DNA of 64,000 nt from Nitrosococcus watsonii C-113 (GTDB taxonomy: Bacteria; Pseudomonadota; Gammaproteobacteria; Nitrosococcales; Nitrosococcaceae). Under the pieces are notes generated by a model that was given only the letters and a program-made list of their open reading frames with translations, ran no database searches and had not been told where the DNA came from. The stretch is taken from contig NC_014315.1 in NCBI RefSeq assembly GCF_000143085.1, positions 2,200,001 to 2,264,000 on the forward strand. Reading direction: 5' to 3'. Position 1 is the first letter of the stretch, and each line of letters opens with the position of its first letter. The translations under genes and the position numbers were made by a program. Positions 13,589-61,900 of the stretch are shown piece after piece.

Positions 13589-14974
13589 CTAGGAAGCGCC
13601 AAAGTGAGGGTCAAGCTCCACGGCTAATTCACGCTGAAGCTGTTCATTCGCTTGGCGCAATGAGTCGCTGACTGTCACGGGATATCCGAACTTCACGCGT
13701 TGCAACGCGTGAAGTTCGAGGGGCAACGCCGCCATTTGCTGGCGAGCGTGCTCCCGTGCGTCCGCCAGGGAAGTTCGTCCTCGCCCAAGCCGTTTACCTT
13801 GGCTCATGACCTGCTCAAGCAGCGGCTTGCCGGCTAAATTTTCCTCAAAGCGGGCGATAACATCCCGCTTCATCCTGTCGGCTTCAAAAAATCTGAAGAC
13901 TTGTTTACGGCCTGGCAAGAGTTCCTTGCTAGAAGATAGCTTCATCCGGGGCTTGCCCGCATACTCAACCAATTTATAAGAAAAATCAATCTCTGGCGCA
14001 TCTCCCGAAACAGCTAGTTGGGTTCCCACGCCAAACCCGTCGATAGGCGTTTGCTCTGCCAGCAGGGCTTGAATTTTATACTCATCCAACCCACTGGAAG
14101 CCACAATTCGTACCTGACTGAGTCCCCCTTCATCAAGCAGCCGGCGGGATTCCTTGGCTAGCTTGCCCAGATCTCCTGAATCAAGTCGAATAGCTTTCAC
14201 CTTGAAATCCTGGCCTAGCGCCTCTGCCAGCGCAATGACTTTACGAACTCCCGCCAAAGTATCATAGGTATCCACTAACAAAGTAGTGTCTGGAAATTCC
14301 TGAATAAAAGCCCGGAGGGCCGCATATTCACTCGGATGGGCTTGGATGAAGCTATGTGCCATCGTGCCCACCACTGGAATACCATAAGCACGGCCCGCAA
14401 AAACATTGGAGGTAGCATTCACGCCAGCCAGGTAACTAGTGCGTGCTATCTTTAGCGCCGCATCAGTCCCATGGGCGCGCCGTGAACCAAAATCCACCAC
14501 CTTATGGCCGCGAGCCGCACTCACTACCCTCGCCGCCTTGGTGGCCAGAACGCTTTGTAAATGAATTTGATTGAGAAGATAGGTTTCCACTAACTGGGCC
14601 TCTGGAAGCGGTGCAATCACTTGCACAACCGGTTCATTTTCAAACACCACCGTACCTTCCGGCACAGCAAACACATCCCCGGTAAAATGAAAATCCCCCA
14701 GTTGCTGGCAAAACCGTGGACTAAACCCTCCTGCTTCCTTGAGCCAATCGCGCTCCCCATCCGTAACATGAAGCTGCTCAAGATAACTTAGAATATTGTC
14801 GAGGCCCGCCGCCATTACAAAATTGCGGTTTGAGGGAAGTGTACGGAAAAATAATTCGAACACGGCGATGGCATTCATCTCTTCCGCATAATAAGACTGC
14901 ATCATCCTCAACTGGTAAAGATCCGTAAATAATGCACTTTGCTGGGGGATATTATCCTGCTGCTCAACTATCAA
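13589..14974 (-). CDS. pncB: nicotinate phosphoribosyltransferase
   Basis: This enzyme makes nicotinate mononucleotide from nicotinic acid and PRPP in NAD salvage. The 461-residue protein starts with TDLYQLRMMQSYY and FELFFRTLPSNRNF, the family opening. Other motifs are KVVDFGSRRAHGTDAAL, GTMAHSFIQAHPSE and the PRPP/product region IRLDSGDLGKLAKESR. The length matches the longer, Gram-positive-like NaPRTase branch more than E. coli PncB. The C-terminal coding part contains a perfect 32-bp palindrome (13687-13718). No terminator is apparent between this gene and the convergent MFS gene. Confidence 0.92.
   Translation of the reverse strand: MIVEQQDNIPQQSALFTDLYQLRMMQSYYAEEMNAIAVFELFFRTLPSNRNFVMAAGLDNILSYLEQLHVTDGERDWLKEAGGFSPRFCQQLGDFHFTGDVFAVPEGTVVFENEPVVQVIAPLPEAQLVETYLLNQIHLQSVLATKAARVVSAARGHKVVDFGSRRAHGTDAALKIARTSYLAGVNATSNVFAGRAYGIPVVGTMAHSFIQAHPSEYAALRAFIQEFPDTTLLVDTYDTLAGVRKVIALAEALGQDFKVKAIRLDSGDLGKLAKESRRLLDEGGLSQVRIVASSGLDEYKIQALLAEQTPIDGFGVGTQLAVSGDAPEIDFSYKLVEYAGKPRMKLSSSKELLPGRKQVFRFFEADRMKRDVIARFEENLAGKPLLEQVMSQGKRLGRGRTSLADAREHARQQMAALPLELHALQRVKFGYPVTVSDSLRQANEQLQRELAVELDPHFGAS
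13687..13718. repeat. perfect 32-bp palindrome inside pncB
   Basis: The half-site CGAACTTCACGCGTTG (13687-13702) is followed directly, with no spacer, by its exact reverse complement (13703-13718). It lies in the coding sequence and encodes ELHALQRVKF. It could form a cruciform or a 16-bp mRNA hairpin. Confidence 0.9.
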
Positions 14975-15082
14975 CGCTACCTGCCCTCCTTTTAAACTAT
15001 TTTTTTTAGCCTACACTAACAATTATAACTATTACGATGAAGATATGGAGATCCTAAACCCAGACAGATAGAGGAAATGGTC

Positions 15083-15244
15083 ATGCTCTCACTTGCAATA
15101 CTTTCTCTTATTATTGCCCTTGTAGCTATATTACTAGCATTCTTAGGCATTGCAGGAGCCAAATTCACAGAGTTTTTTGTTCTCATTTTTATTGTCGCTT
15201 TTATTTCGGCATTTATATTATGGAGACAATCGCCTCGCAGATAA
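15083..15244 (+). CDS. DUF1328/YtjA-like small membrane protein
   Basis: A 53-codon gene reading MLSLAILSLIIALVAILLAF, then FLGIAGA, a second hydrophobic stretch and the basic end WRQSPRR. Two membrane helices and the GIAGA turn are the hallmark of the DUF1328 (YtjA) family, found in many proteobacteria, with unknown function. An in-frame ATG exists at 15077, but AGAGG at 15070-15074 gives better spacing to 15083. It is a lone gene divergent from pncB. Confidence 0.82.
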   Translation: MLSLAILSLIIALVAILLAFLGIAGAKFTEFFVLIFIVAFISAFILWRQSPRR

Positions 15245-15588
15245 GCGCGACTAGAGATCAGGTAATGCCTGTAAAGTTGCGCTAGCTATTATCGGTATAG
15301 TAATAGCACAAGATTAGCTGCACTGTGCAAAGCAGCGAATGGGGCGTCCATCAGCGACCATAACAGCGCAAACGAGCCTGTTGATCTCTTTAGAAATAAG
15401 GAGTTTATTGCCAGAGAATAATTTTGAGCGCTAGAAGGTCGTGCCCTTATTACCGGTAAAAAAAGTAGGAGGTAACGAGTAGCTTCCTCCGGCTAAAGTT
15501 TACGATAATAGGCCGGAGAAAGCTCTCTGTTGAACGCATAATTTCTGTCTCTAGCCGCACTAAGAATACGACTATCTATCAGAAGAAA
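15245..15588. other. intergenic region, no feature seen
   Basis: This 344-bp spacer lies between the DUF1328 gene and the convergent 3' end of the Ter operon. No open frame, strong hairpin with U-run, or RNA gene was recognised. Confidence 0.4.
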
Positions 15589-16176
15589 TTATAAATGAGG
15601 ACGAATAGCAGGGAGCAGATCATTAAAAGTTCTACCGTTCGCATTCTCACCAATGGCATGCATTTTCCACTCCTCATTATGGCGATAAACCTTCGCCATT
15701 ATCTGAGCGTTGTGCTCTCCTTGGCAGCTTAGGTCATAGCGGGCAATTTCCGCGTTATTGCTATGATTAACCAGACGACAGAAAGCGTTTTTGACCCGGC
15801 TGAAATTTTGCCCGGTAAAATTGTTGACTACAAACACTAAACTTTTAACACTCACCGGAACCCGGGTTAAATCCACGATGATTTGCTCATCATCCCCTTC
15901 TCCTTCGCCCGTAAGGTTATCCCCGGTATGGGTAATACTTCCATCCTTACTTTGCAGCTGACGAAACCAGACTGCATCCAGGACATTGCCTGACTCGTCA
16001 AATAGCACGCAAGAAGCATCTAAATCGATTCGCCGACCATCGCCGCCAAAACCGAAGAGCCCCCTTTTCATCGTGTCCGCAGCATCCCAACCCACCCCCA
16101 TGATAATCTTACTTAAGGTCCCGCCACTCTCTTTTTCAAGAGAAATTTTTTGGCCTTTTACTAGCTTAACGGGCAT
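15589..16176 (-). CDS. TerD-family protein (TerZ-like), distal copy
   Basis: TerD-domain proteins are calcium-binding beta-sandwich proteins of the tellurite/phage/stress Ter systems. This 195-residue copy keeps the two acidic loops RIDLDASCVLFDE and [20 protein letters not shown] that bind Ca2+. It differs from the second copy (21372-21950) by a glycine-rich insert TMKRGLFGFGGDGR near residue 40 and several cysteines, as in TerZ/TerX-type members. It is the last gene of the minus-strand Ter operon, 64 bp after the TerC-like gene. Confidence 0.92.
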   Translation of the reverse strand: MPVKLVKGQKISLEKESGGTLSKIIMGVGWDAADTMKRGLFGFGGDGRRIDLDASCVLFDESGNVLDAVWFRQLQSKDGSITHTGDNLTGEGEGDDEQIIVDLTRVPVSVKSLVFVVNNFTGQNFSRVKNAFCRLVNHSNNAEIARYDLSCQGEHNAQIMAKVYRHNEEWKMHAIGENANGRTFNDLLPAIRPHL

Positions 16177-16240
16177 ATCTTCCTCTCCTTATAAAGAAAA
16201 TCACCATTATTCAAACAAGTAATTTTTTCTAAATTCTACA

Positions 16241-17263
16241 TCAACCCCTTTCATCTTGAAATGGATGCTTATTCCGATACCGAATAGAAGAAAGCAAGGA
16301 CAAACCGATGAAGGCCGCGCCAATCATCCCGGTAATCACTTCGGGTATGTGGACTTTAGTGCTTGCGAGCATGATGAGCGCCAAGGCACCAATGGCATAG
16401 TGGGCGCCATGTTCAAGGAAAACATACTCGCTTAGCGTGCCTTTGCGGACTAAGTATACCGTAATAGAACGCACAAACATGGCGCCAATCGCTAATCCTA
16501 GCATAATAATAATGACATCCTTGCTAATGGCAAAAGCGCCGATAACCCCATCAAAAGAGAAAGAAGCATCCAGCACCTCAAGATAGAGAAAACCCATCAC
16601 GCCACTACGCTTCGCCGCATGGGCAACCGCTTCTCCCGTTTCCTCTACCTCAAATAATCCAGAGGCACTGCCTACAATGACGAAGAGCATGACCCCGCTA
16701 ATTCCAGCTAGCATGGCGCCTAGTTTCTCCTCGGGTGGCAAAAAACTTTGGAGGGCCCATAAAACCCCCAGGGCAATAACTATCTCGATGGATTCCAGCT
16801 TGCCAATCCTAGATAATTTCTCTTCGGCCCGCCCCAACCAATGCAGTTCTTTTGTCTCATCAAGCAAAAAGGACAAAAATACCATTAATAAAAACATGCC
16901 GCCAAAAGCGGAAATATCTACGTGGGAGGCGTGCAAATGGGCGGAGTAAGTATCCGGATCATTAAGCGCCATCTGCGTCACTTCTAGCATCCCAATATCA
17001 GCAACAATGGCAACAATGGCAACGGGAAAAACCAAGCGCATTCCAAATACAGCAATCAGAATACCCCACGTCAGAAAACGAGCTTGCCACTTGGGGTCCA
17101 TATCCTTAAGCACAGATGCATTGACGACCGCATTATCGAAGGACAAGCTAATTTCAAGAACGCCTAGGATAGCAGCAATAAATAAACCGGCAGGCCCCCC
17201 CCATAGGAAAGCTGCTATTAAGCCTACCACAGTTACTAAAAAAGAATACCTGAAATGTCTCAT
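16241..17263 (-). CDS. TerC-superfamily (DUF475) integral membrane protein
   Basis: A 340-residue polytopic protein. Acidic motifs inside membrane helices, EISLSFDNAVVNASVLKDM (residues ~37-55) and DASFSFDGVIGAFAISKD (~211-228), are the paired signatures of TerC-like proteins. The long cytoplasmic stretch LLDETKELHWLGRAEEKL fits the DUF475 branch. TerC relatives are linked to metal (Mn, Ca or tellurite) stress and are thought to anchor Ter complexes to the membrane. It lies within the Ter operon, 47 bp after the C-C lyase gene. Confidence 0.9.
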   Translation of the reverse strand: MRHFRYSFLVTVVGLIAAFLWGGPAGLFIAAILGVLEISLSFDNAVVNASVLKDMDPKWQARFLTWGILIAVFGMRLVFPVAIVAIVADIGMLEVTQMALNDPDTYSAHLHASHVDISAFGGMFLLMVFLSFLLDETKELHWLGRAEEKLSRIGKLESIEIVIALGVLWALQSFLPPEEKLGAMLAGISGVMLFVIVGSASGLFEVEETGEAVAHAAKRSGVMGFLYLEVLDASFSFDGVIGAFAISKDVIIIMLGLAIGAMFVRSITVYLVRKGTLSEYVFLEHGAHYAIGALALIMLASTKVHIPEVITGMIGAAFIGLSLLSSIRYRNKHPFQDERG

Positions 17264-17310
17264 AAATTATTGATAATTAAAATTTTTTACGGTTCTATAA
17301 AGAGTAATTT

Positions 17311-18288
17311 TCAAGAGAAATTGCGAGTACAATCACAACTATTCAGCCGTTCGCAACAGACACCATAAAGCTCGGCTTGTAACAGCAATCGTTCCGCCCA
17401 CGCGCAATGGGTAGCCGGTTCAACCATTTGGCTATTGAGTTTAAACACGGCTGGTGCTCCTTTCTTAAGGGCGTGCTGCGCCAAATCCATATCTTTTTCA
17501 CAGACCCGATAGGCTCTCTCCACCACGGGTACTTGACTAGGATGAATAGCCGCCTTAGTAAGTAGGCCATGAGCGATATCTAGCATTATTTCACGCCGCA
17601 AGGTGGCATAATCATTAAGATACTCAAAAACCGGAGAAGAAAGCCCATAGCCTGCAGGACGAAAAGTCAAAATAACATCATTGATTATATTCCGTAGCGG
17701 CGTATCGTATATTGTTAAATGTTTAGGTCGCCTTAATCCCAACAAACGCAGGAGATCATTACCACCAATCCGAAGGCATAAAATGGGATTGCCCACATTA
17801 GCAAGTACCTTGCGAAACGCCTCCAGTCGCTCTCGGCTAAAGGCCACCTCCGTCTCAAGCGTAGGCATTAAAAGCAGATCGGGAATCTGGGCAGCCAATT
17901 CCGCGTAAACCGGTAGATTCTTCTCATCCACCTTGGGCAATACAAATCCATCTATCCTTCTAATTTCAGGATAGCGCATCAATTGAGACAGTATCTCGGG
18001 GTTGCGAGGACGAATAAAACGCAGCATGGAGGAAGGGCGAAGCTGTTCCAATACTCGCCGCAAATTAGCGAGCGCGGGAGGTAGCTCTTGTTCCAAAATG
18101 GAATCTTCAGTACATACCACAGCCGAACGTAGACCGGTAAGTTTTTGTTGATTGAGAATTCTCGCGATATCCTTCCGCGTAGCAGGCATATAAAGGGTAG
18201 CGCCAAGCTCCATATAATGGGGTATTTGGGCCTGCATCGGGTAGGCATTCGCCGTCAGTTGAGTGCTCTGGAATTGTGACGGGTACAT
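17311..18288 (-). CDS. CitE/HpcH-like C-C bond lyase of Ter biosynthetic module
   Basis: A 325-residue TIM-barrel protein related to HpcH/HpaI aldolases and citrate lyase beta subunits. Visible elements: MELGATLYMPATRKDIARIL at the N-terminus, DGFVLPKVDEKN, LMPTLETEVAF (metal/substrate Glu) and CLRIGGNDLL. This is the variant found in Ter operons (called C-C_Bond_Lyase in Pfam, from memory), where it is proposed to help build a nucleoside-like metabolite. The C-terminus ends in a Cys-rich segment (YGVCCERLNSCDCTRNF), which is unusual. It begins 26 bp after the StiP-like gene. Confidence 0.85.
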   Translation of the reverse strand: MYPSQFQSTQLTANAYPMQAQIPHYMELGATLYMPATRKDIARILNQQKLTGLRSAVVCTEDSILEQELPPALANLRRVLEQLRPSSMLRFIRPRNPEILSQLMRYPEIRRIDGFVLPKVDEKNLPVYAELAAQIPDLLLMPTLETEVAFSRERLEAFRKVLANVGNPILCLRIGGNDLLRLLGLRRPKHLTIYDTPLRNIINDVILTFRPAGYGLSSPVFEYLNDYATLRREIMLDIAHGLLTKAAIHPSQVPVVERAYRVCEKDMDLAQHALKKGAPAVFKLNSQMVEPATHCAWAERLLLQAELYGVCCERLNSCDCTRNFS

Positions 18289-18314
18289 GGCTTTTTTCTA
18301 GAGTTTATAGAATA

Positions 18315-19442
18315 CTACGTTGTTTTTATGGTTTTGATAAAAGCCACCGCATTAAAAGGCATATCCGGCTGATGCTCGACCACTACCCCCTTCTCTTCCG
18401 CCAATATTAATAAATGAGCGGTTTCCTCCGCCCCTGGGTCCCGCAGCAAAAGTCTTTCCGGAACACGACGCAACATCACCCGGGTTGCTTCCGCAATCCC
18501 CGGTTTAATATGATTGATATCCCCAACACCATAACTATCGATCCAACGGTTAAGATAAATCTGGGTTTGAGCATAACGCTCCCTGCGAGAAATAGAAGGA
18601 AAGGGCGCCACAATGTTAACATCCATTTCCGCTTCTATTTCATCCAGGAACCAATGACTAACATCATGCTGCTGTAAGTGCTCATAAAAAGTACAGCCGT
18701 GAAACTGCCCTGGCTGAATCTGGTAATTTAATATGGAACGAGAAATGAGTCCTGAAACCGGTGCATTGAGAATACCGGAAGGGATCACATAATCTTCGTA
18801 GGTCGCGGCAATATCCGCCACTCCGCCAATGTCAGAAATCACATAAAGCGTGTCTTTGAGCTGCTCCTGATGGCGGGCGTTCCAATGGGCAACGGCCCGT
18901 TTTAGCTCTTTTGTGATAACGCCTTTGGCTGTCCAAGCATCTACAAATACAACCCCAGCCGCCGGGCGCTGGTGCTCTCTTAACAAAAATTTTAAAGCTT
19001 GTTCATCAATGCCCCGATCTCGGATAATAGAAATGGAGTAATGCCGGGAATCTACTTGGAGGTGGCGGCTCAAAGCCCGCTGCAATAAAGCCCCGATGGG
19101 TGTACCCGCTCGAACCAATGATACCAGGGTAATAGGCGCCGATCGAGTATTAGCGATCCCTTGCGCCAGCCTCATCACTTCGGCAGCCAAACGGCCTTTA
19201 TGACGCTGAGTCAAGCTTCGGAATAAAGTCAAATAAGATTCGCTAGGCGGCGATTCAAAGCTGATCATCTCCGAATAATGCTTCTCACCCGATTGAATCA
19301 GGCGCTCCTTCTCTTGGATAGAGAAGAATTCAGCTTGGAGTGGCGTCAATAAGAATTGGCAATCAACCTGACGGTAACTTCCCGTGATAGGACAAAGCCC
19401 AGTTTCAATCCCAACAACGGGGCCATCTGCCGCCTGGCTCAC
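18315..19442 (-). CDS. StiP-family PRTase-fold protein of Ter module
   Basis: The 375-residue protein has phosphoribosyltransferase-like segments: ITLVSLVRAGTPIGALLQRA (~105-124) and the PRPP-loop-like GVVFVDAWTAKGVITKEL (~160-177). This matches the StiP family of Ter operons, often annotated 'cysteine protease StiP' but PRTase-like in sequence. The start is GTG at 19442 inside GTGTGAGCC, so its start codon overlaps the stop of the HAD gene by four bases (GTGA). That indicates translational coupling. The proposed role, from comparative genomics of Ter systems, is synthesis of a ribosyl or nucleoside-like compound. Confidence 0.82.
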   Translation of the reverse strand: MSQAADGPVVGIETGLCPITGSYRQVDCQFLLTPLQAEFFSIQEKERLIQSGEKHYSEMISFESPPSESYLTLFRSLTQRHKGRLAAEVMRLAQGIANTRSAPITLVSLVRAGTPIGALLQRALSRHLQVDSRHYSISIIRDRGIDEQALKFLLREHQRPAAGVVFVDAWTAKGVITKELKRAVAHWNARHQEQLKDTLYVISDIGGVADIAATYEDYVIPSGILNAPVSGLISRSILNYQIQPGQFHGCTFYEHLQQHDVSHWFLDEIEAEMDVNIVAPFPSISRRERYAQTQIYLNRWIDSYGVGDINHIKPGIAEATRVMLRRVPERLLLRDPGAEETAHLLILAEEKGVVVEHQPDMPFNAVAFIKTIKTT

Positions 19443-20182
19443 ACCCAGGCTTCCTGTTGAATTTGGCTATTTTGCGGTGTAAGCGCGTAATGACAAGCAC
19501 GGAGGAAAGGAATATCGGTCAAGCTGTCACCCATGCCAATAAATAGCGGTGGCTCCTCACAATGTTCGCGAATCAGCGTCATGATGTATTTCACGGCCCT
19601 GGCCTTATCCGCATAAGGAGGAAGAAGCGCCATATTATGATCATTGCGGTGAAACCTTCCGCCCATTTCCTGGACCCAAAGAGGCACCACCACCCCCTCG
19701 ACCGCTGAAAGTTGCTTAGGGCCGCCTTTGATAGAAAGATAGACGGGTATCCCTGCATCGTAAATAATACGAAACCGCAAATCTTCTACCTGCTCCGCCC
19801 GCTGATAGCCTTCAATCACTACAAGAAGATGCTGCATCCGCGGTTCCCAAATTAAGGCCTCTCCCCTAATGGTGCTCTCCCATTCCGGGAGTAAAGCACT
19901 ATTGGTATCCCACACCAATGCACCATGGCTGGTGATTCGATAGTTGGAAAAGAAAGGGGAACGAATTCTGCCCAGCGCTTCTAAATTGCGCCCAGTCACA
20001 GGAATCAAAGTGCAAGCTTCAAAGAGCCGCAACAATAATAGCTGCTCCTGGGAGTGGAAAGACAAGGGACGGCCTTCCCTATCGACCGCCGCTTCCGTCA
20101 ACGGACCCGGTGCCCGGCATTTACGTTGAGTCTGCAACAAAGTATCATCCAGATCAGAAAAGACAAAGACGGAACGCTTCAT
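19439..20182 (-). CDS. HAD-superfamily hydrolase of Ter module
   Basis: A 247-residue HAD phosphatase. Motif I is FSDLDDTLLQT with the Asp pair at 10-12, motif II VTGRN, the motif III Lys lies in ADKARAVKYI, and motif IV is GMGDSLTDIPF. The cap resembles Cof/sucrose-phosphatase-type HADs. The ATG directly abuts the TGA of the upstream PRTase gene (TGAATG) and the stop overlaps the next gene's start. A three-gene translationally coupled block results, consistent with one pathway. Confidence 0.88.
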   Translation of the reverse strand: MKRSVFVFSDLDDTLLQTQRKCRAPGPLTEAAVDREGRPLSFHSQEQLLLLRLFEACTLIPVTGRNLEALGRIRSPFFSNYRITSHGALVWDTNSALLPEWESTIRGEALIWEPRMQHLLVVIEGYQRAEQVEDLRFRIIYDAGIPVYLSIKGGPKQLSAVEGVVVPLWVQEMGGRFHRNDHNMALLPPYADKARAVKYIMTLIREHCEEPPLFIGMGDSLTDIPFLRACHYALTPQNSQIQQEAWV

Positions 20183-21307
20183 TCAACAATCCGATCCCGT
20201 TTTGGTAGCCACCCCCCAAATACTTCCACCCAGCTGCTCCGGAAGATTGTGATGACGTGCTAATTCGGCAAACTCATAGGCAATAATAACCTCTCTGCCA
20301 CGAGGAGGATTATGAAGATAGGTAGGGATACTTCCCCCATATTCATCTTTAAAACTAAGACTTTCGCCAATGGGTCCGCCCAAGCGAATAGGGGAACGGG
20401 TAGTGCTCTGAAACAGGACATCAAAGCCTTCTCTTTCCAACTGCTCCGCCCATAGAAAAGGTTGAAATTGAAACTCGCCGGTCCCTACAACAGACACCTT
20501 ACGTTCCTTTGGATAAGGACCATCTGGCATACGGAACTTCTTATCTCCTATCGCTATCCCCCGCCGGCCAGTCTGCTGGCAAGCTTGCGCCGTTGACTGA
20601 AATGCTTTGGTTTTTTCAGGTAAAGGAGGAGGTTTATATTTTACATTAGGAATAAACGAAAATACGCCTTCTAACAAACTAACAAAAGATACCGGCTTGT
20701 TAACATTGGTTTGAAATACCTGCTTTTGAGCGGGCGAAAGCCAGTTAACAATGGATACCACCACAATTTGCCGAATATGGGGTAGCACTTGTATCATTCT
20801 GTAGCTCAGCTCTCTCAGCGTCCGCCCTGTGCTGATTTCATCATCCACAAGAACCAAGGTTTGTGCTTGAGAAAATCGTTCACGAAAAACCGGCAAAGGT
20901 GGATAGAGGATATGCTCAGGCGCATGGCTGTGGGATTCATCAAAACACACCCATTCGGTGATCGGCAGGCTATGGCGGGTGGTGTGTTGAAAAACAATAT
21001 CACAGCGCTGTGTTTTTCGGACCAAACTATCTGCAACCCCCGCGCCCAAACCCGTAGCCGTTTCAGCCATACCGATAAAAATAGCGGGGCCAGGTATCTC
21101 TAAGAGAGGCAGAGCCAAGCGATTGTAAATATCCCGCATTCTCGAAGGCTGGCAAGGGATATGCTTGCCAAGCACTTTGGAAACAAACAAGTATCCGCGC
21201 TTGGGATTGATTCGGCTAGCAAAATCCAATAAATCGTTCAATGGGAAAAGGGTCTTGCGGACTTCAATGGTCAAAGTCCCCGCAGCAAGACGAATAGTAT
21301 GGCCCAT
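20183..21307 (-). CDS. phosphoribosyltransferase with TRSP domain (Ter module)
   Basis: A 374-residue two-domain protein. Residues ~30-200 form a type I PRTase: FIGMAETATGLGAGVADSL and the PRPP loop TLVLVDDEISTGRTLREL. The C-terminal ~110 residues hold the TTRSP motif (FQSTTRSPIRLGGPIGESLS) that gives the TRSP domain its name, and a preceding GTGEFQFQPFLWAE strand. This architecture is characteristic of Ter stress-response biosynthetic operons. It is the first gene after the large inverted repeat at 21318-21367, and it is coupled to the HAD gene. Confidence 0.88.
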   Translation of the reverse strand: MGHTIRLAAGTLTIEVRKTLFPLNDLLDFASRINPKRGYLFVSKVLGKHIPCQPSRMRDIYNRLALPLLEIPGPAIFIGMAETATGLGAGVADSLVRKTQRCDIVFQHTTRHSLPITEWVCFDESHSHAPEHILYPPLPVFRERFSQAQTLVLVDDEISTGRTLRELSYRMIQVLPHIRQIVVVSIVNWLSPAQKQVFQTNVNKPVSFVSLLEGVFSFIPNVKYKPPPLPEKTKAFQSTAQACQQTGRRGIAIGDKKFRMPDGPYPKERKVSVVGTGEFQFQPFLWAEQLEREGFDVLFQSTTRSPIRLGGPIGESLSFKDEYGGSIPTYLHNPPRGREVIIAYEFAELARHHNLPEQLGGSIWGVATKTGSDC

Positions 21308-21317
21308 TCAGTAACCC

Positions 21318-21367
21318 ATCTATTGTTGAGCGCGCAGCCATCCGCCGACGCGCGCTCAACAATAGAT
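21318..21367. repeat. 18-bp perfect inverted repeat between terD and PRTase genes
   Basis: The arms ATCTATTGTTGAGCGCGC (21318-21335) and GCGCGCTCAACAATAGAT (21350-21367) are exact reverse complements around a 14-nt loop. The hairpin fills almost the whole gap between the terD stop (21372) and the PRTase start (21307). No U-run follows on the minus strand, so it is not a simple rho-independent terminator. It may be an RNA processing, stabilising or attenuating structure that sets different levels for terB-terD and the biosynthetic genes. Confidence 0.9.
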
Positions 21368-21371
21368 ATCC

Positions 21372-21950
21372 TTAGCCAATATTGACGCCAAAATCCCTGG
21401 CTACGCCGGCTAATCCACCCGCATAGCCCTGGCCTACCGCCTTAAATTTCCATTCTTCGCCATGGCGGTAAAATTCCCCGAAAATCATGGCCGTTTCAAT
21501 GCTGGCATCCTCCGATAAATCATAACGGGCAATCTCTGCATTGTCAGCATTATTAACCGCGCGAATAAATGCGTTACTTACCTGGCCAAAATTTTGATTG
21601 CGGGACTCCGCCTCATGAATAGTGACCACAAAAACAACTTTTTTCGCCTCTGGCGGCATTTTAGAGACATCGACAATGATTCTTTCATCATCCCCTTCTC
21701 CCTCGCCGGTACGATTGTCCCCCGTATGGGTTACAGCGCCACTAGGATCGGTCGTATTGTTATAGAAAACGAAATGATTATCGCTTAACACCTTGTCGCT
21801 TTCGCCTAAAATAAGCGCACTGGCATCCAAATCGAAATCAGTGCCATCGGTAGAGCGAGCATCCCATCCTAACCCAAACGCAACCTCTTTTAGACCGGGG
21901 GCTTCTTTGCTCAGGGATACATTCTGTCCTTTCTGTAAGGTTACCGCCAT
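21372..21950 (-). CDS. terD: TerD-family calcium-binding stress protein
   Basis: The 192-residue single-domain protein matches TerD/TerE closely: [19 protein letters not shown]-type opening, [17 protein letters not shown] and [20 protein letters not shown], with the conserved Asp clusters that bind Ca2+, and the end [18 protein letters not shown]. It follows terB by 25 bp. Such proteins confer tellurite, phage-inhibition or oxidative-stress phenotypes in other bacteria; the in vivo role here is unknown. Confidence 0.94.
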
Positions 21951-21975
21951 TACTTACTCCTTATATCAGTCTTTT

Positions 21976-22428
21976 TTAAAGATCAAAATCAGCCGGATTC
22001 AATCCCAGCTCTGAGCAGATTTTGCTCACCGTTTTTCTTTCAGCATTGTCAAAATCACCGTCCGATGCTCCAATTGCGCAGCAAACCCGTACCAAAAGCC
22101 GGGCTTCCCCCTCTTTCTTTTTAACTTTACTGACCGCCTGAAGCGCATTGGCTTCGCCAATGGCTGGATCAAACTCGAATTGAGCAGAGAATTTTTCAAA
22201 CAGCTTGATAACATTCTCCGTGTCAAAAACCGACAATACCTCCGATGTTTGCAAAAAACCCATCATTTTTTGCTTCTCTTCAGGTTTGACAACCCCATCA
22301 GCATAAGCGACCAGGGTGCAGCCCGCAATTACGCCTTCAAGGAAGTCTTTATTCCTGATTTTAGTGGTCTCATTTTTCAAATTGGTAGAGACTTCGTTAA
22401 ATTTACCTTTTAACCAACTCAAAGCCAT
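21976..22428 (-). CDS. terB: TerB-family tellurite resistance protein
   Basis: A 150-residue helical protein with TerB motifs: VIAGCTLVAYADGVVKPEEK and CCAIGASDGDFDNAERKTVSKIC, two Asp-containing helix turns that create the metal site of the TerB fold. It starts at ATG 22428 behind an AGAGGTT ribosome binding site and is the first gene of the minus-strand Ter operon. The promoter should therefore lie in 22429-22846. Confidence 0.92.
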   Translation of the reverse strand: MALSWLKGKFNEVSTNLKNETTKIRNKDFLEGVIAGCTLVAYADGVVKPEEKQKMMGFLQTSEVLSVFDTENVIKLFEKFSAQFEFDPAIGEANALQAVSKVKKKEGEARLLVRVCCAIGASDGDFDNAERKTVSKICSELGLNPADFDL

Positions 22429-22846
22429 TATTGTGAACCTCTTTCTCGTTACAGTTGTGCCCCGAGGACGGTTGACATAAAAAATCCTGAATGCCAGACT
22501 TAAGAAGTTAAATATTCTTCATTGTTCCCGGGCCTAATATTATTCTGTTTAGACGACGTTAGGGCACCTAACAGATAGGTGGATATTCAGCAATGCTAAA
22601 TTAGCATATCTATGCTGTTTCAAAAAGCAAGCCTTCCCTGCTGACGGTAAATAGTTATCCTAATTCATGCAAGTAGCATATCACTACTATAGAAATCAGG
22701 AATTTATATGAAAAATCTTAAGAAGAAAAGTTTAATAAAATTATCACTGTGATTGCGGAATAGTTCAAGATAAGGGATTGTCTTGTTTATACACCAATCA
22801 CTAACGCTCTTTCTCTTTAGCTACTGTATATAGAGATATAAAAACG
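22429..22846. promoter_or_regulatory. divergent regulatory region between terB and the PagL-like gene
   Basis: This 418-bp spacer separates two divergent transcription units and must hold both promoters. A short dyad CACCTaacagatAGGTG lies near 22566. No consensus -35/-10 pair was clear enough to assign, and no gene is seen. Confidence 0.35.
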
Positions 22847-23389
22847 ATGAAGATGTTTTCAAAAGCGATGATGGGGGCCGTTCTAGTTTTCCTGACCTGG
22901 GACTACCCTGTATTGGCGGAAGACTCTCAGCCCGCCGCATTCAAAATCGGTAACGTTGAATTCCTTGCCGATGAGCCAAGCTACCTGGACTTTGGGGCTG
23001 GGGCCTTTGATATTGTTCATTCAGAAATTTCCGCCGCTGGTTATATTGAATACCGCTATGGAAAAAAACTATCCTTCATTGGCCCTGTTATGGGAATAAT
23101 GGCGAATACGGACGGGGGAGTGTTTGGCTACGGCGGCATCTACACTAATATTAAATACCGGAGGTTAGTTGCCACGCCGTTTTTTACGGTAGGAGGATAC
23201 CACCAAGGCGGGAGCAAGGATCTCGGGGGCACCTTTCAATTTCGCAGCGGCATAACTTTTGCTTATCAATTTGATAAGGGCTCTCGCCTTGGAGTACGCT
23301 TCGCCCACATCTCCAACGCCAGTATCCATGATAATAATCCTGGCGAGAATGAACTGCTTTTGACCTATTCCCTACCCTTAGCCTTTTAG
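22847..23389 (+). CDS. acyloxyacyl hydrolase, PagL-like lipid A 3-O-deacylase
   Basis: A 180-residue protein with a signal peptide ending near VLAED and an eight-strand beta-barrel pattern finishing in LTYSLPLAF (C-terminal Phe, as in outer-membrane proteins). The segment RFAHISNASIHDNNPGENEL carries the His-x-Ser pair (His154, Ser156) and nearby Glu residues (167/169) that form the catalytic site of PagL. PagL removes the 3-position acyl chain of lipid A in the outer membrane. hpnA begins 49 bp downstream on the same strand, so a shared role in outer-membrane lipid composition is plausible. Confidence 0.85.
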   Translation: MKMFSKAMMGAVLVFLTWDYPVLAEDSQPAAFKIGNVEFLADEPSYLDFGAGAFDIVHSEISAAGYIEYRYGKKLSFIGPVMGIMANTDGGVFGYGGIYTNIKYRRLVATPFFTVGGYHQGGSKDLGGTFQFRSGITFAYQFDKGSRLGVRFAHISNASIHDNNPGENELLLTYSLPLAF

Positions 23390-23438
23390 CCATGCTTCGG
23401 CAAGCCTCGCTCCAGGTACCTGCAGGAAAACAAGGAGC

Positions 23439-24428
23439 ATGACCAGCTTTGTTACCGGCGCAACCGGCTTTGTAGGTTCGGCGGTAGTCAAGCAACTGCT
23501 CGATGCGGGAGAAACTGTCCGGGTATTAGCCCGCTCCAACAGTGATCGGCGTAATTTGGAAGGGTTACCCATAGAAATCTTTGAAGGTGATCTTAAAGAT
23601 CAACGGCGCCTAGAAAAAGCGCTCCATGGTTGCCAAGCTCTTTTTCATGTGGCGGCTGATTACCGCTTATGGGCTCCCCGTTCGCAAGACTTTTATGATA
23701 CTAACGTCCGGGGCTCCGAGAATATCATCCACGCTGCGGCGGAAGCCGGCGTTAACCGTATTGTTTACACCAGTAGCGTCGCCACGCTGGGATTAAGCCC
23801 TGATGGTACGCCAACTGATGAGGAAACCCCCTCCAGCCTCGACACCATGATCGGCCACTATAAACGATCTAAATTTTTGGCTGAGGAATCAGTTAAGGAT
23901 CTGAGGCGCAGACTGGGGCTAAATATCGTGATTGTTAACCCCTCCACCCCTATTGGACCACGGGATATCAAACCCACGCCTACTGGCAGAGTCATTGTCA
24001 TGGCCGCCTCAGGAAACATGCCTGCCTACATGAACACCGGTCTCAACGTGGTCCATGTGGATGATGTCGCCGCTGGCCACCTCCTGGCCTTTGAAAAAGG
24101 CGGCATGGGTGAGCGTTATATTCTTGGAGGCGAGAACCTTACCCTGCATGATATTCTGGCAACGATCGCCCAGCTTACCCACCGCCGTCCTCCTAGATTC
24201 CGACTTTTACCTCACATGGTCTTGCCAATCGCTTACCTTGCTCAAGGCTGGGCTCGTCTGACCAACGGCAAAGAACCCATGACCACGGTTGACGGCGTGC
24301 GGATGGCAAAGAAATATATGTTTTTTTCTAGCACTAAAGCGGAGCAACTGCTAGGCTATCAGTCTCGCCCCGCTCAAGAAGCAATTCATGATGCAATTAG
24401 CTGGTTTCAGGCCAATAACTACCTGTAG
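23439..24428 (+). CDS. hpnA: hopanoid-associated sugar epimerase
   Basis: A 329-residue extended short-chain dehydrogenase/reductase. NAD-binding GATGFVGSAVV at residues 7-17, the catalytic YTSSVATLG and YKRSKF (Tyr/Lys pair), and FHVAADYRLWAPRSQDFYDT, which is characteristic of HpnA. HpnA enzymes are encoded in hopanoid biosynthesis loci and are linked to hopanoid side-chain sugars. AAGGAGC lies just before the ATG. No other hpn gene is in the window. Confidence 0.88.
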   Translation: MTSFVTGATGFVGSAVVKQLLDAGETVRVLARSNSDRRNLEGLPIEIFEGDLKDQRRLEKALHGCQALFHVAADYRLWAPRSQDFYDTNVRGSENIIHAAAEAGVNRIVYTSSVATLGLSPDGTPTDEETPSSLDTMIGHYKRSKFLAEESVKDLRRRLGLNIVIVNPSTPIGPRDIKPTPTGRVIVMAASGNMPAYMNTGLNVVHVDDVAAGHLLAFEKGGMGERYILGGENLTLHDILATIAQLTHRRPPRFRLLPHMVLPIAYLAQGWARLTNGKEPMTTVDGVRMAKKYMFFSSTKAEQLLGYQSRPAQEAIHDAISWFQANNYL

Positions 24429-24479
24429 ACTAGGCTAAAGAGATTCCTCCTCTGCTTCCGCTAGCGGGGATTACTTACT

Positions 24480-25226
24480 ATGTCCAATTCTTCGCGCTTT
24501 GTCGTCTGCACCTATAATTTATGGCAGGATGAGCGCTGGCCAGAGCGGCAAGAACCCTTGCGGCAATTCATCACGCTTCATCGACCGGACATTCTATGCG
24601 TGCAAGAACTTTGCCCCCAAAGCCAATCCTTACTGGATCAAACGCTCCCGACCCATCAACGGGTGGATGACCCCTTTGAAGGTTGGAAGAGAGAAAGCAA
24701 TATTTATTGGAATGAGTCGCTTTTCTATCTGCTCGAATATGGCGCGGAGAATATTGGAATTCTAGAGCAGTGGCGCCGCCTCTTTTGGGTCCGGTTACAA
24801 CCTCAAATTACTGGCGGACCGCCCCTCTTGGTGGCCACCGCCCACTACACTTGGCCCGGCAACCACCAAGAACGCAACGATAGAGTCAATGTACGCGTTG
24901 CCCAAGCTCTTAACACTGTCAAAATGCTGCGCCGACTAGCGACGCAGTCCTCACCATTGCTATTCATGGGGGATCTTAACGATCATTACTTACCCCTAAA
25001 AGTGCTCCAAGAAGGCGGCCTTACTGATTGTTTTACTGCTTTAGGCCGCATCCCCCAAATCACTCGTCCCGCTTATCCCACCTATGTTCACACGCCCCAG
25101 GTCGTTGACTGGGTACTCCACTGGGGACCCCTACAACCCATGACCAGCGATGTGGTGGATTTTTTTGTGGGAGATGTTGCCCCCTCCGATCATAAACCGC
25201 TGCTTGCTACTTATCGATGGGCATAA
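24480..25226 (+). CDS. endonuclease/exonuclease/phosphatase (EEP) family protein
   Basis: A 248-residue protein with the EEP fold: CTYNLWQDERWPE, metal-binding PDILCVQELCPQ (Glu), the catalytic MGDLNDHYLPL and the closing SDHKPLLATY (Asp-His). No signal peptide or added domain is visible, so the substrate could be a nucleic acid, phospholipid or inositol phosphate. It follows hpnA by 51 bp and may be in the same unit. Confidence 0.82.
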   Translation: MSNSSRFVVCTYNLWQDERWPERQEPLRQFITLHRPDILCVQELCPQSQSLLDQTLPTHQRVDDPFEGWKRESNIYWNESLFYLLEYGAENIGILEQWRRLFWVRLQPQITGGPPLLVATAHYTWPGNHQERNDRVNVRVAQALNTVKMLRRLATQSSPLLFMGDLNDHYLPLKVLQEGGLTDCFTALGRIPQITRPAYPTYVHTPQVVDWVLHWGPLQPMTSDVVDFFVGDVAPSDHKPLLATYRWA

Positions 25227-61867: not shown

Positions 61868-61900
61868 GGCATCCCTCCTTGCGTCATAAGGAGGGATGCC
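61868..61900 (+). terminator. rho-independent terminator, 13-bp perfect stem
   Basis: GGCATCCCTCCTT (61868-61880) and AAGGAGGGATGCC (61888-61900) are exact complements around loop GCGTCAT, followed by CCTCTTTGATT. It ends the 61289-61858 transcript. The right arm's AAGGAGGG is a Shine-Dalgarno-like sequence sequestered in the stem, but the next ATG (61937) has its own AGAAGGAAA. Confidence 0.8.

Follow-up and report, generated by a model that had tools for sequence, protein, structure and literature searches.

Between positions 15589 and 22428 of a 64,000-nucleotide stretch of Nitrosococcus watsonii C-113 DNA (contig NC_014315.1; the whole stretch is called the window here) lies an eight-gene Ter operon with its own set of metabolite enzymes, and this operon is the subject of our analysis. 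All eight open reading frames (ORFs) are on the minus strand. Read from 22428 to 15589, they encode TerB, TerD, a phosphoribosyltransferase (PRTase) with PRTase_2 and TRSP domains, a HAD phosphatase, a StiP-PELOTA protein, a CitE-like lyase, a DUF475/TerC membrane protein and a second TerD (table 1). From terB to the last terD, the intergenic gaps are 25, 64, 0, -4, 26, 47 and 64 nt. A first-pass annotation, made from the DNA letters, had described a one-strand operon with short gaps and three translationally coupled genes. The ORFs, the Pfam matches and gaps of 25 to 64 nt bear this out, and the coupling is seen where the PRTase gene abuts the HAD gene (0 nt) and where the HAD and StiP genes overlap by 4 nt.

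Table 1. Features of the Ter operon, its intercistronic stem-loop and the next gene downstream (window positions).
Feature	Position	Strand	Evidence
terB, operon gene 1	21976..22428	-	PF05099 1.8e-23
terD, first TerD	21372..21950	-	PF02342 1.4e-85
Intercistronic stem-loop, terD/PRTase gap; 18-bp perfect arms, 14-nt loop	21318..21367	-	inverted repeat, folding, covariation
PRTase_2 + TRSP enzyme, predicted adenine PRTase (APRT)-like fold	20183..21307	-	PF15609 4.9e-65, PF12500 2.5e-12
HAD (IIB-like) phosphatase	19439..20182	-	NCBIfam HAD-SF-IIB 9e-8, below cut-off; motifs
StiP + PELOTA_1 protein; predicted PRTase-like fold + L7Ae-like domain	18315..19442	-	PF11202 7.5e-100, PF15608 4.4e-30
CitE-like TIM-barrel C-C bond lyase	17311..18288	-	PF15617 1.7e-98
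TerC-superfamily membrane protein, DUF475 type	16241..17263	-	PF04332 2.8e-112, PF03741 1.3e-19
Second, divergent TerD	15589..16176	-	PF02342 3.8e-53
pncB, nicotinate phosphoribosyltransferase, next gene downstream, not an operon member	13589..14974	-	NF006696 657.8 bits

In the Pfam scan, TerB, TerD (twice), PRTase_2 with TRSP, StiP with PELOTA_1, C-C_Bond_Lyase and DUF475/TerC all exceeded their cut-offs. The HAD protein had no Pfam match at 0.001; its assignment comes from a match to the NCBIfam model HAD-SF-IIB below that model's cut-off (32.4 against 41.8 bits), together with the HAD motifs DLDDT and GDSLTD. The TerB, TerD and TerC-superfamily proteins mark the locus as a Ter system, and PRTase_2-TRSP, StiP-PELOTA and the C-C lyase, found together and joined by the HAD protein, mark it as one with the metabolite module. 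On sequence grounds this is a known kind of Ter system, functional-looking and in a reduced form shared across its clade.

The reduction concerns the ATP-grasp enzyme. The first-pass annotation had reported it missing from the operon and the flanking DNA, and we indeed found no ATPgrasp_Ter-type gene in window positions 5001-35000. A dispersed copy would have overturned that annotation's view of the operon, and it had suggested searching the genome (3.37 Mb, 3 contigs) for ATPgrasp_Ter and TerY. The Pfam family ATPgrasp_Ter (PF15632) gave one match of 29.8 bits in this genome, inside a 1074-amino-acid ORF which, from its size, we take to be CarB. Of 14 well-known control genomes, 12 also gave PF15632 matches above the cut-off, and the model was dropped as a genome-wide detector, as PF15632 matches alone would not demonstrate a Ter enzyme. 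Because of this permissiveness we instead used a profile built from six genuine ATPgrasp_Ter proteins that stand beside Ter genes (L009 of Pseudomonas neustonica, G619, G659, G662, G317 and G074). The profile had no match in the N. watsonii genome or in the five other genomes of its family, three of the same genus (G274-G276) and two further family members (G277 and G278). None of the six family genomes has TerY_C, for which G619 and G685 served as positive controls.

We then considered how widely the ATP-grasp is missing among relatives. The profile was run on 25 genomes, three of which (G074, G619 and P. neustonica, G692) had supplied profile sequences and match by construction. A second P. 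neustonica gene (345 bits) and a gene of Thiococcus (G684), both outside the profile, were recovered, so that the profile does detect new members. The other 22 genomes yielded one high-scoring gene, that of Thiococcus, three with weak or partial matches (G687, G690 and G193) and 18 with none. The weak matches were each rejected as substitutes: a 55.1-bit match in Halomonas G687 belongs to a PylC-like protein in an apparent polysaccharide cluster, the second match in that genome (22.3 bits) and the one in G193 (18.6 bits) were likewise set aside, and the G690 match (33.7 bits) is an ambiguous fragment in a 40-amino-acid open frame. P. neustonica has two Ter metabolite clusters (L009 and L120), each with its own ATP-grasp.

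In a maximum-likelihood tree of 29 StiP sequences, the window protein fell in a 17-sequence group (support 98/98) in which no cluster has a linked ATP-grasp. This group holds the own family (6), Nitrococcus, Thiococcus, Halomonadaceae (6), G068, G056 and G193. By profile, 16 of the 17 genomes have nothing above 56 bits genome-wide and one carries ATPgrasp_Ter elsewhere. Three changes on the tree account for the linked-ATP-grasp label; shuffled labels needed 6.4 on average, and none of 500 shuffles went as low. The tree has long branches (L077, L075 and L076) and its root serves for drawing only. Eight genomes lay above the StiP cut-off and seven were followed, G195, whose StiP is truncated and whose genome is 58% complete, being omitted; StiP matches under the cut-off were left unused. 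The lyase family comprised eight matches above 200 bits; G318 was omitted, as its broken lyase scored 99 bits and its stretch showed no StiP. Several loci, including L002, L003 and L087, had little flanking sequence, which the whole-genome profile search offsets. The Ter cluster of G581 (L084) is without the ATP-grasp gene that precedes the PRTase gene in its nearest StiP relatives. As the absence is common to the whole StiP clade, it is better described as a lineage variant than as a peculiarity of this locus: the missing linked ATP-grasp looks like a clade trait and not like the mark of a broken or exceptional system. The absence reported by the first-pass annotation thus stands, and what is weakened is how remarkable it had seemed. 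By these data, ATPgrasp_Ter, which the first-pass annotation called usual, is not a defining member of the Ter metabolite module as we see it in sequence.

Alternatively, this could be a standard system that is merely dispersed, with an ATP-grasp of another family, encoded elsewhere, performing the same step in the usual chemistry. Thiococcus offers a precedent within the same StiP clade: its genuine ATPgrasp_Ter gene (L118:9147-10385; 252 bits by profile, 125.7 bits by Pfam) has no recognised Ter gene within about 9 kb, and the Thiococcus Ter cluster itself is without an ATP-grasp. The PylC-like ATP-grasp of G687 also exceeds the Pfam ATPgrasp_Ter cut-off. However, the profile found no ATPgrasp_Ter in the N. 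watsonii genome or its five family members, and among the two ATP-grasp Pfam families scanned, ATPgrasp_Ter and ATP-grasp_4, matches in the N. watsonii genome fell only in the CarB-sized frame of 1074 amino acids (the ATP-grasp_4 match being weak and in a frame of that size). We consider a dispersed system unlikely.

Within the family, the operon order recurs in all five other genomes, far beyond chance, with all eight genes in three of them and seven, lacking HAD, in two. The three same-genus genomes keep HAD at 75-88% identity. In G277 and G278 (2.0 and 1.85 Mb), 132 and 75 nt lie between the PRTase and StiP genes, no HAD was recognised in that gap, and the window HAD as query had no match anywhere in these two genomes, nor in G013 or G117. 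The key motifs of StiP, PRTase and lyase are intact in both. PRTase-TRSP, StiP-PELOTA and the lyase are therefore the enzymes common to all six family operons, a retained core.

Selection on these genes was assessed against G275 by the Nei-Gojobori method. Across the eight genes of the operon, the ratio of non-synonymous to synonymous substitution rates (dN/dS) was lowest for terB (0.007) and highest for PRTase (0.22), synonymous sites being saturated or nearly so in more distant comparisons. In our reading, purifying selection acts on both the enzymes and the Ter proteins. Could the enzyme module nonetheless be a decaying remnant, with only the TerB, TerD and TerC proteins at work? Patchy loss, of the ATP-grasp in the clade and of HAD in G277 and G278, fits this idea, as does the faster evolution of the enzyme genes relative to terB and the first terD. 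It is countered by the ORFs, which are all intact, by dN/dS values no higher than 0.22, by motifs retained even in genomes of 1.8-2.0 Mb and by a gene order kept in 6/6 family genomes except for the missing HAD. Decay of the module is, in our judgement, improbable.

The surroundings of the operon point to vertical inheritance. On the terB side, the same epimerase and endonuclease genes are found in all six family genomes (window 22847-25226; L078-L082), and a PagL-family gene also lies there in the window. We rejected a mobile defence island on account of these shared neighbours and because none of the eight operon proteins matched the PADLOC 2023 models at E 0.001. On the other side, pncB adjoins the operon as a single copy in the 4/4 same-genus genomes examined, with a dN/dS of 0.13 against G275. 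It was not found in G277 and G278 and stands 614 nt from terD in the window, and we rejected it as a pathway member; it is a neighbour only. A further gene, on the minus strand elsewhere in the genome (C1:2712297-2713595; L106:8798-10096), joins a separate TerD domain to a nuclease-like domain of the type I restriction family HSDR_N. That gene adjoins a nucleotidyltransferase and its substrate-binding partner, with genes beside it that we read as SbcCD-like, and a shorter copy of the fusion occurs in G277 (L108:9826-10620).

To gain insight into the enzymes, we turned to predicted structures. The PRTase_2 model, with a mean predicted local distance difference test (pLDDT) score of 85, aligned with adenine PRTases over 174 residues (Z 12.4, 2.9 A) and carries the phosphoribosyl pyrophosphate (PRPP) motif DDEISTGRT; a sequence search of solved structures with PRTase_2 gave nothing convincing (best E 0.27). 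By predicted fold and PRPP motif, the protein qualifies as a member of the PRTase superfamily. The StiP model matched residues 639-954 of Bcs3, the CriT region, over 199 residues (Z 11.6, 3.8 A), followed by hypoxanthine-guanine PRTases at Z 9.4 and lower. Searched by sequence against solved structures, StiP gave only L7Ae/eL8/Snu13/S12-type matches to its PELOTA half, which is L7Ae-like (best E 0.0014). CriT spans Bcs3 residues 599-1036, has a PRTase-like core and transfers ribose-5-phosphate from PRPP in O-linkage, after which the HAD phosphatase CrpP removes the phosphate (PMC10299916).

Pfam names StiP a cysteine protease, and one could imagine it processing a peptide or a Ter protein instead of transferring ribosyl groups. 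His248 and Cys250 are invariant across 11 sequences, in keeping with that name. The predicted fold matches PRTases instead, with no protease among the fold matches listed, and the motifs SLVRAG and VDAWTAKG sit, in our placement, at PRTase loop positions. A PRTase of Ter operons that ends in a PELOTA domain has moreover been described (PMC5571608), and two PRTases had been proposed for Ter systems before (PMC5512222). The model thus favours the published PRTase assignment over the Pfam label, and a protease role seems to us quite unlikely. The PRTase fold of StiP is itself a prediction, and a fold alone does not prove function.

The first-pass annotation had overlooked a perfect inverted repeat in the gap between terD and the PRTase gene. 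With its 18-bp arms it is the longest perfect repeat with a 3-20 nt loop in the window, and its folding energy is -37.8 kcal/mol (z -6.2); 4 of 6392 tiled 84-nt folds across the window equal or exceed this stability. Two other long perfect short-loop repeats lie at 13687-13718 and 61868-61900 (14- and 13-bp arms). Each of the six family genomes has a strongly folding terD-PRTase gap (z -4.1 to -7.0), whereas none of the 24 other folded gaps of these operons falls below z -2.5 (for L078 and L080, in-frame gene starts were chosen by hand to follow the window). Five of the six family hairpins, widely differing in sequence, were aligned, L082 being omitted for its different gap; 6 of 18 pairs show two-sided changes. 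Of eight terD-PRTase gaps folded outside the family, four, those of L002, L008, L073 and L074, pass z -2.5; the L006 and L011 gaps could not be folded because of their length. In G277 and G278 the stem is followed by a T-rich stretch, so the hairpin is likely a partial terminator or a stabiliser of the mRNA 3' end. It would probably keep terB-terD mRNA more abundant than enzyme mRNA.

The L7Ae-like half of StiP raises another idea, that the protein doubles as a PyrR-like regulator which binds the stem-loop and lets the pathway product feed back on enzyme expression. PELOTA does match L7Ae by sequence, the hairpin covaries at a conserved position, and PyrR as an RNA-binding PRTase appears in the reference list of PMC5512222. 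Yet the window stem is continuous with no visible kink-turn signature, a search of Rfam up to E 1 left the hairpin unmatched (one sub-threshold match lies elsewhere in 15000-22900), and a simple role in mRNA stability or partial termination suffices. We would be surprised if this regulation proved real.

Taken together, we hold with slightly better than even confidence that this is a chromosomal, vertically inherited Ter stress-response operon with a reduced, lineage-wide metabolite module. The gene anatomy, the absences, the selection and the predicted folds come from the data, and each chemical step that follows is what we infer. PRTase_2-TRSP and StiP, both predicted to have PRTase folds, would use PRPP to produce a ribosylated intermediate, with one or both of them carrying out the PRPP-dependent ribosylation. 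The CitE-like lyase would make or break a C-C bond in the side chain of this intermediate. HAD would remove the 5'-phosphate, a step for which another phosphatase could stand in. The resulting small molecule would signal to TerB and TerD under the membrane, together with the TerC-like protein. In other lineages only, an ATP-grasp ligase would decorate the molecule as a late step.

Several observations weigh against this picture. An unrelated ligase encoded elsewhere could replace the ATP-grasp; the unlinked Thiococcus gene, inside the StiP clade, shows that dispersal does occur, and the PylC-like protein of Halomonas G687, also inside the clade, scores 44.6 bits where the Pfam ATPgrasp_Ter cut-off is 29.1 bits. 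G581 lies inside the ATP-grasp group without the gene, and its absence there could be simple decay. The StiP model is moderate (mean pLDDT 78, 11 sequences), its top Foldseek match is an aminotransferase (E 9e-4, template modelling score 0.22), and no PRTase family appears among the Pfam matches of the 11 StiP members up to E 10. StiP keeps just the first Asp of the PRPP DD motif (D168 is invariant and the next residue is not acidic); CriT likewise splits this motif, into D680 and E818 (PMC10299916). Finally, four of the eight outside-family gaps (L003, L004, L005 and L007) have no strong hairpin.

We further put forward, as a tentative proposal that is probably wrong in at least some part, that this branch runs a ligase-free route to the Ter signal, in which StiP would transfer phosphoribose from PRPP in much the same way as the capsule enzyme CriT and HAD would be an optional 5'-phosphatase. 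If so, the minimal Ter pathway would consist of PRTase-TRSP, StiP-PELOTA and the lyase, and the ATP-grasp found elsewhere would only decorate the finished molecule. For the reduced operon that we favour, the smallest relatives, with three retained enzymes, suggest which enzymes of the Ter module are indispensable and offer a naturally reduced pathway with fewer steps to reconstitute. The conserved stem-loop gives a concrete handle on operon expression.

Ter systems with a nucleoside-like-metabolite module were reportedly set out, and their metabolite predicted, by Anantharaman, Iyer and Aravind in 2012. In a later account, a nucleoside-derived signal is sensed by TerB and TerD and answered at the membrane by TerC (PMC7824862). 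The Ter metabolite is still described there, and in the available portions of two further papers, only as a predicted nucleoside-like compound (PMC7824862, PMC8115787, PMC5512222), in agreement with the first-pass annotation, which had called the product nucleoside-like and chemically undefined. We met no discussion of Ter modules lacking the ATP-grasp in the portions of the literature we searched; the 2012 comparative paper may hold one.

A structural parallel lies outside Ter systems, in the capsule protein Bcs3 of Haemophilus influenzae b: the StiP model resembles its CriT region, and a HAD phosphatase is a partner in both. CriT and CrpP act in capsule polymerisation, however, there is no sequence match, and the resemblance is one of fold only. 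The published Ter metabolite systems share with the window operon TerB, TerD, a TerC-like protein, two PRTases and HAD in one system (PMC7824862, PMC5512222), and StiP-PELOTA and the C-C lyase too. The window operon differs from them in having neither ATPgrasp_Ter nor TerY_C, in its DUF475-type TerC and in its eight genes on one strand. By best match, the TerC slot is of DUF475 type in the own family, G193, G056 and G074, and of classic TerC type in Nitrococcus, Halomonadaceae, Pseudomonas and f173 genomes (compared: L002, L004, L006, L009, L011, L083-L086 and L088). The Klebsiella ter locus is described as having two operons and 14 putative biosynthetic genes, with terXYW opposite terZABCDEF (PMC8115787). 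G619, G659 and G662, which we take to be enteric, have a two-strand layout like it. Such loci likewise place these enzyme families beside TerD, TerB and TerC genes, but are spread over two strands and have an ATP-grasp upstream of the PRTase gene. The Halomonadaceae clusters (L004-L008 and L011) share the PRTase-HAD-StiP-lyase block with the window operon and have no ATP-grasp in the stretch; they differ by extra TerD genes, TerA-like genes in some and TerY/vWA genes in 4/6 loci. The presence of an ATP-grasp should not define Ter metabolite systems.

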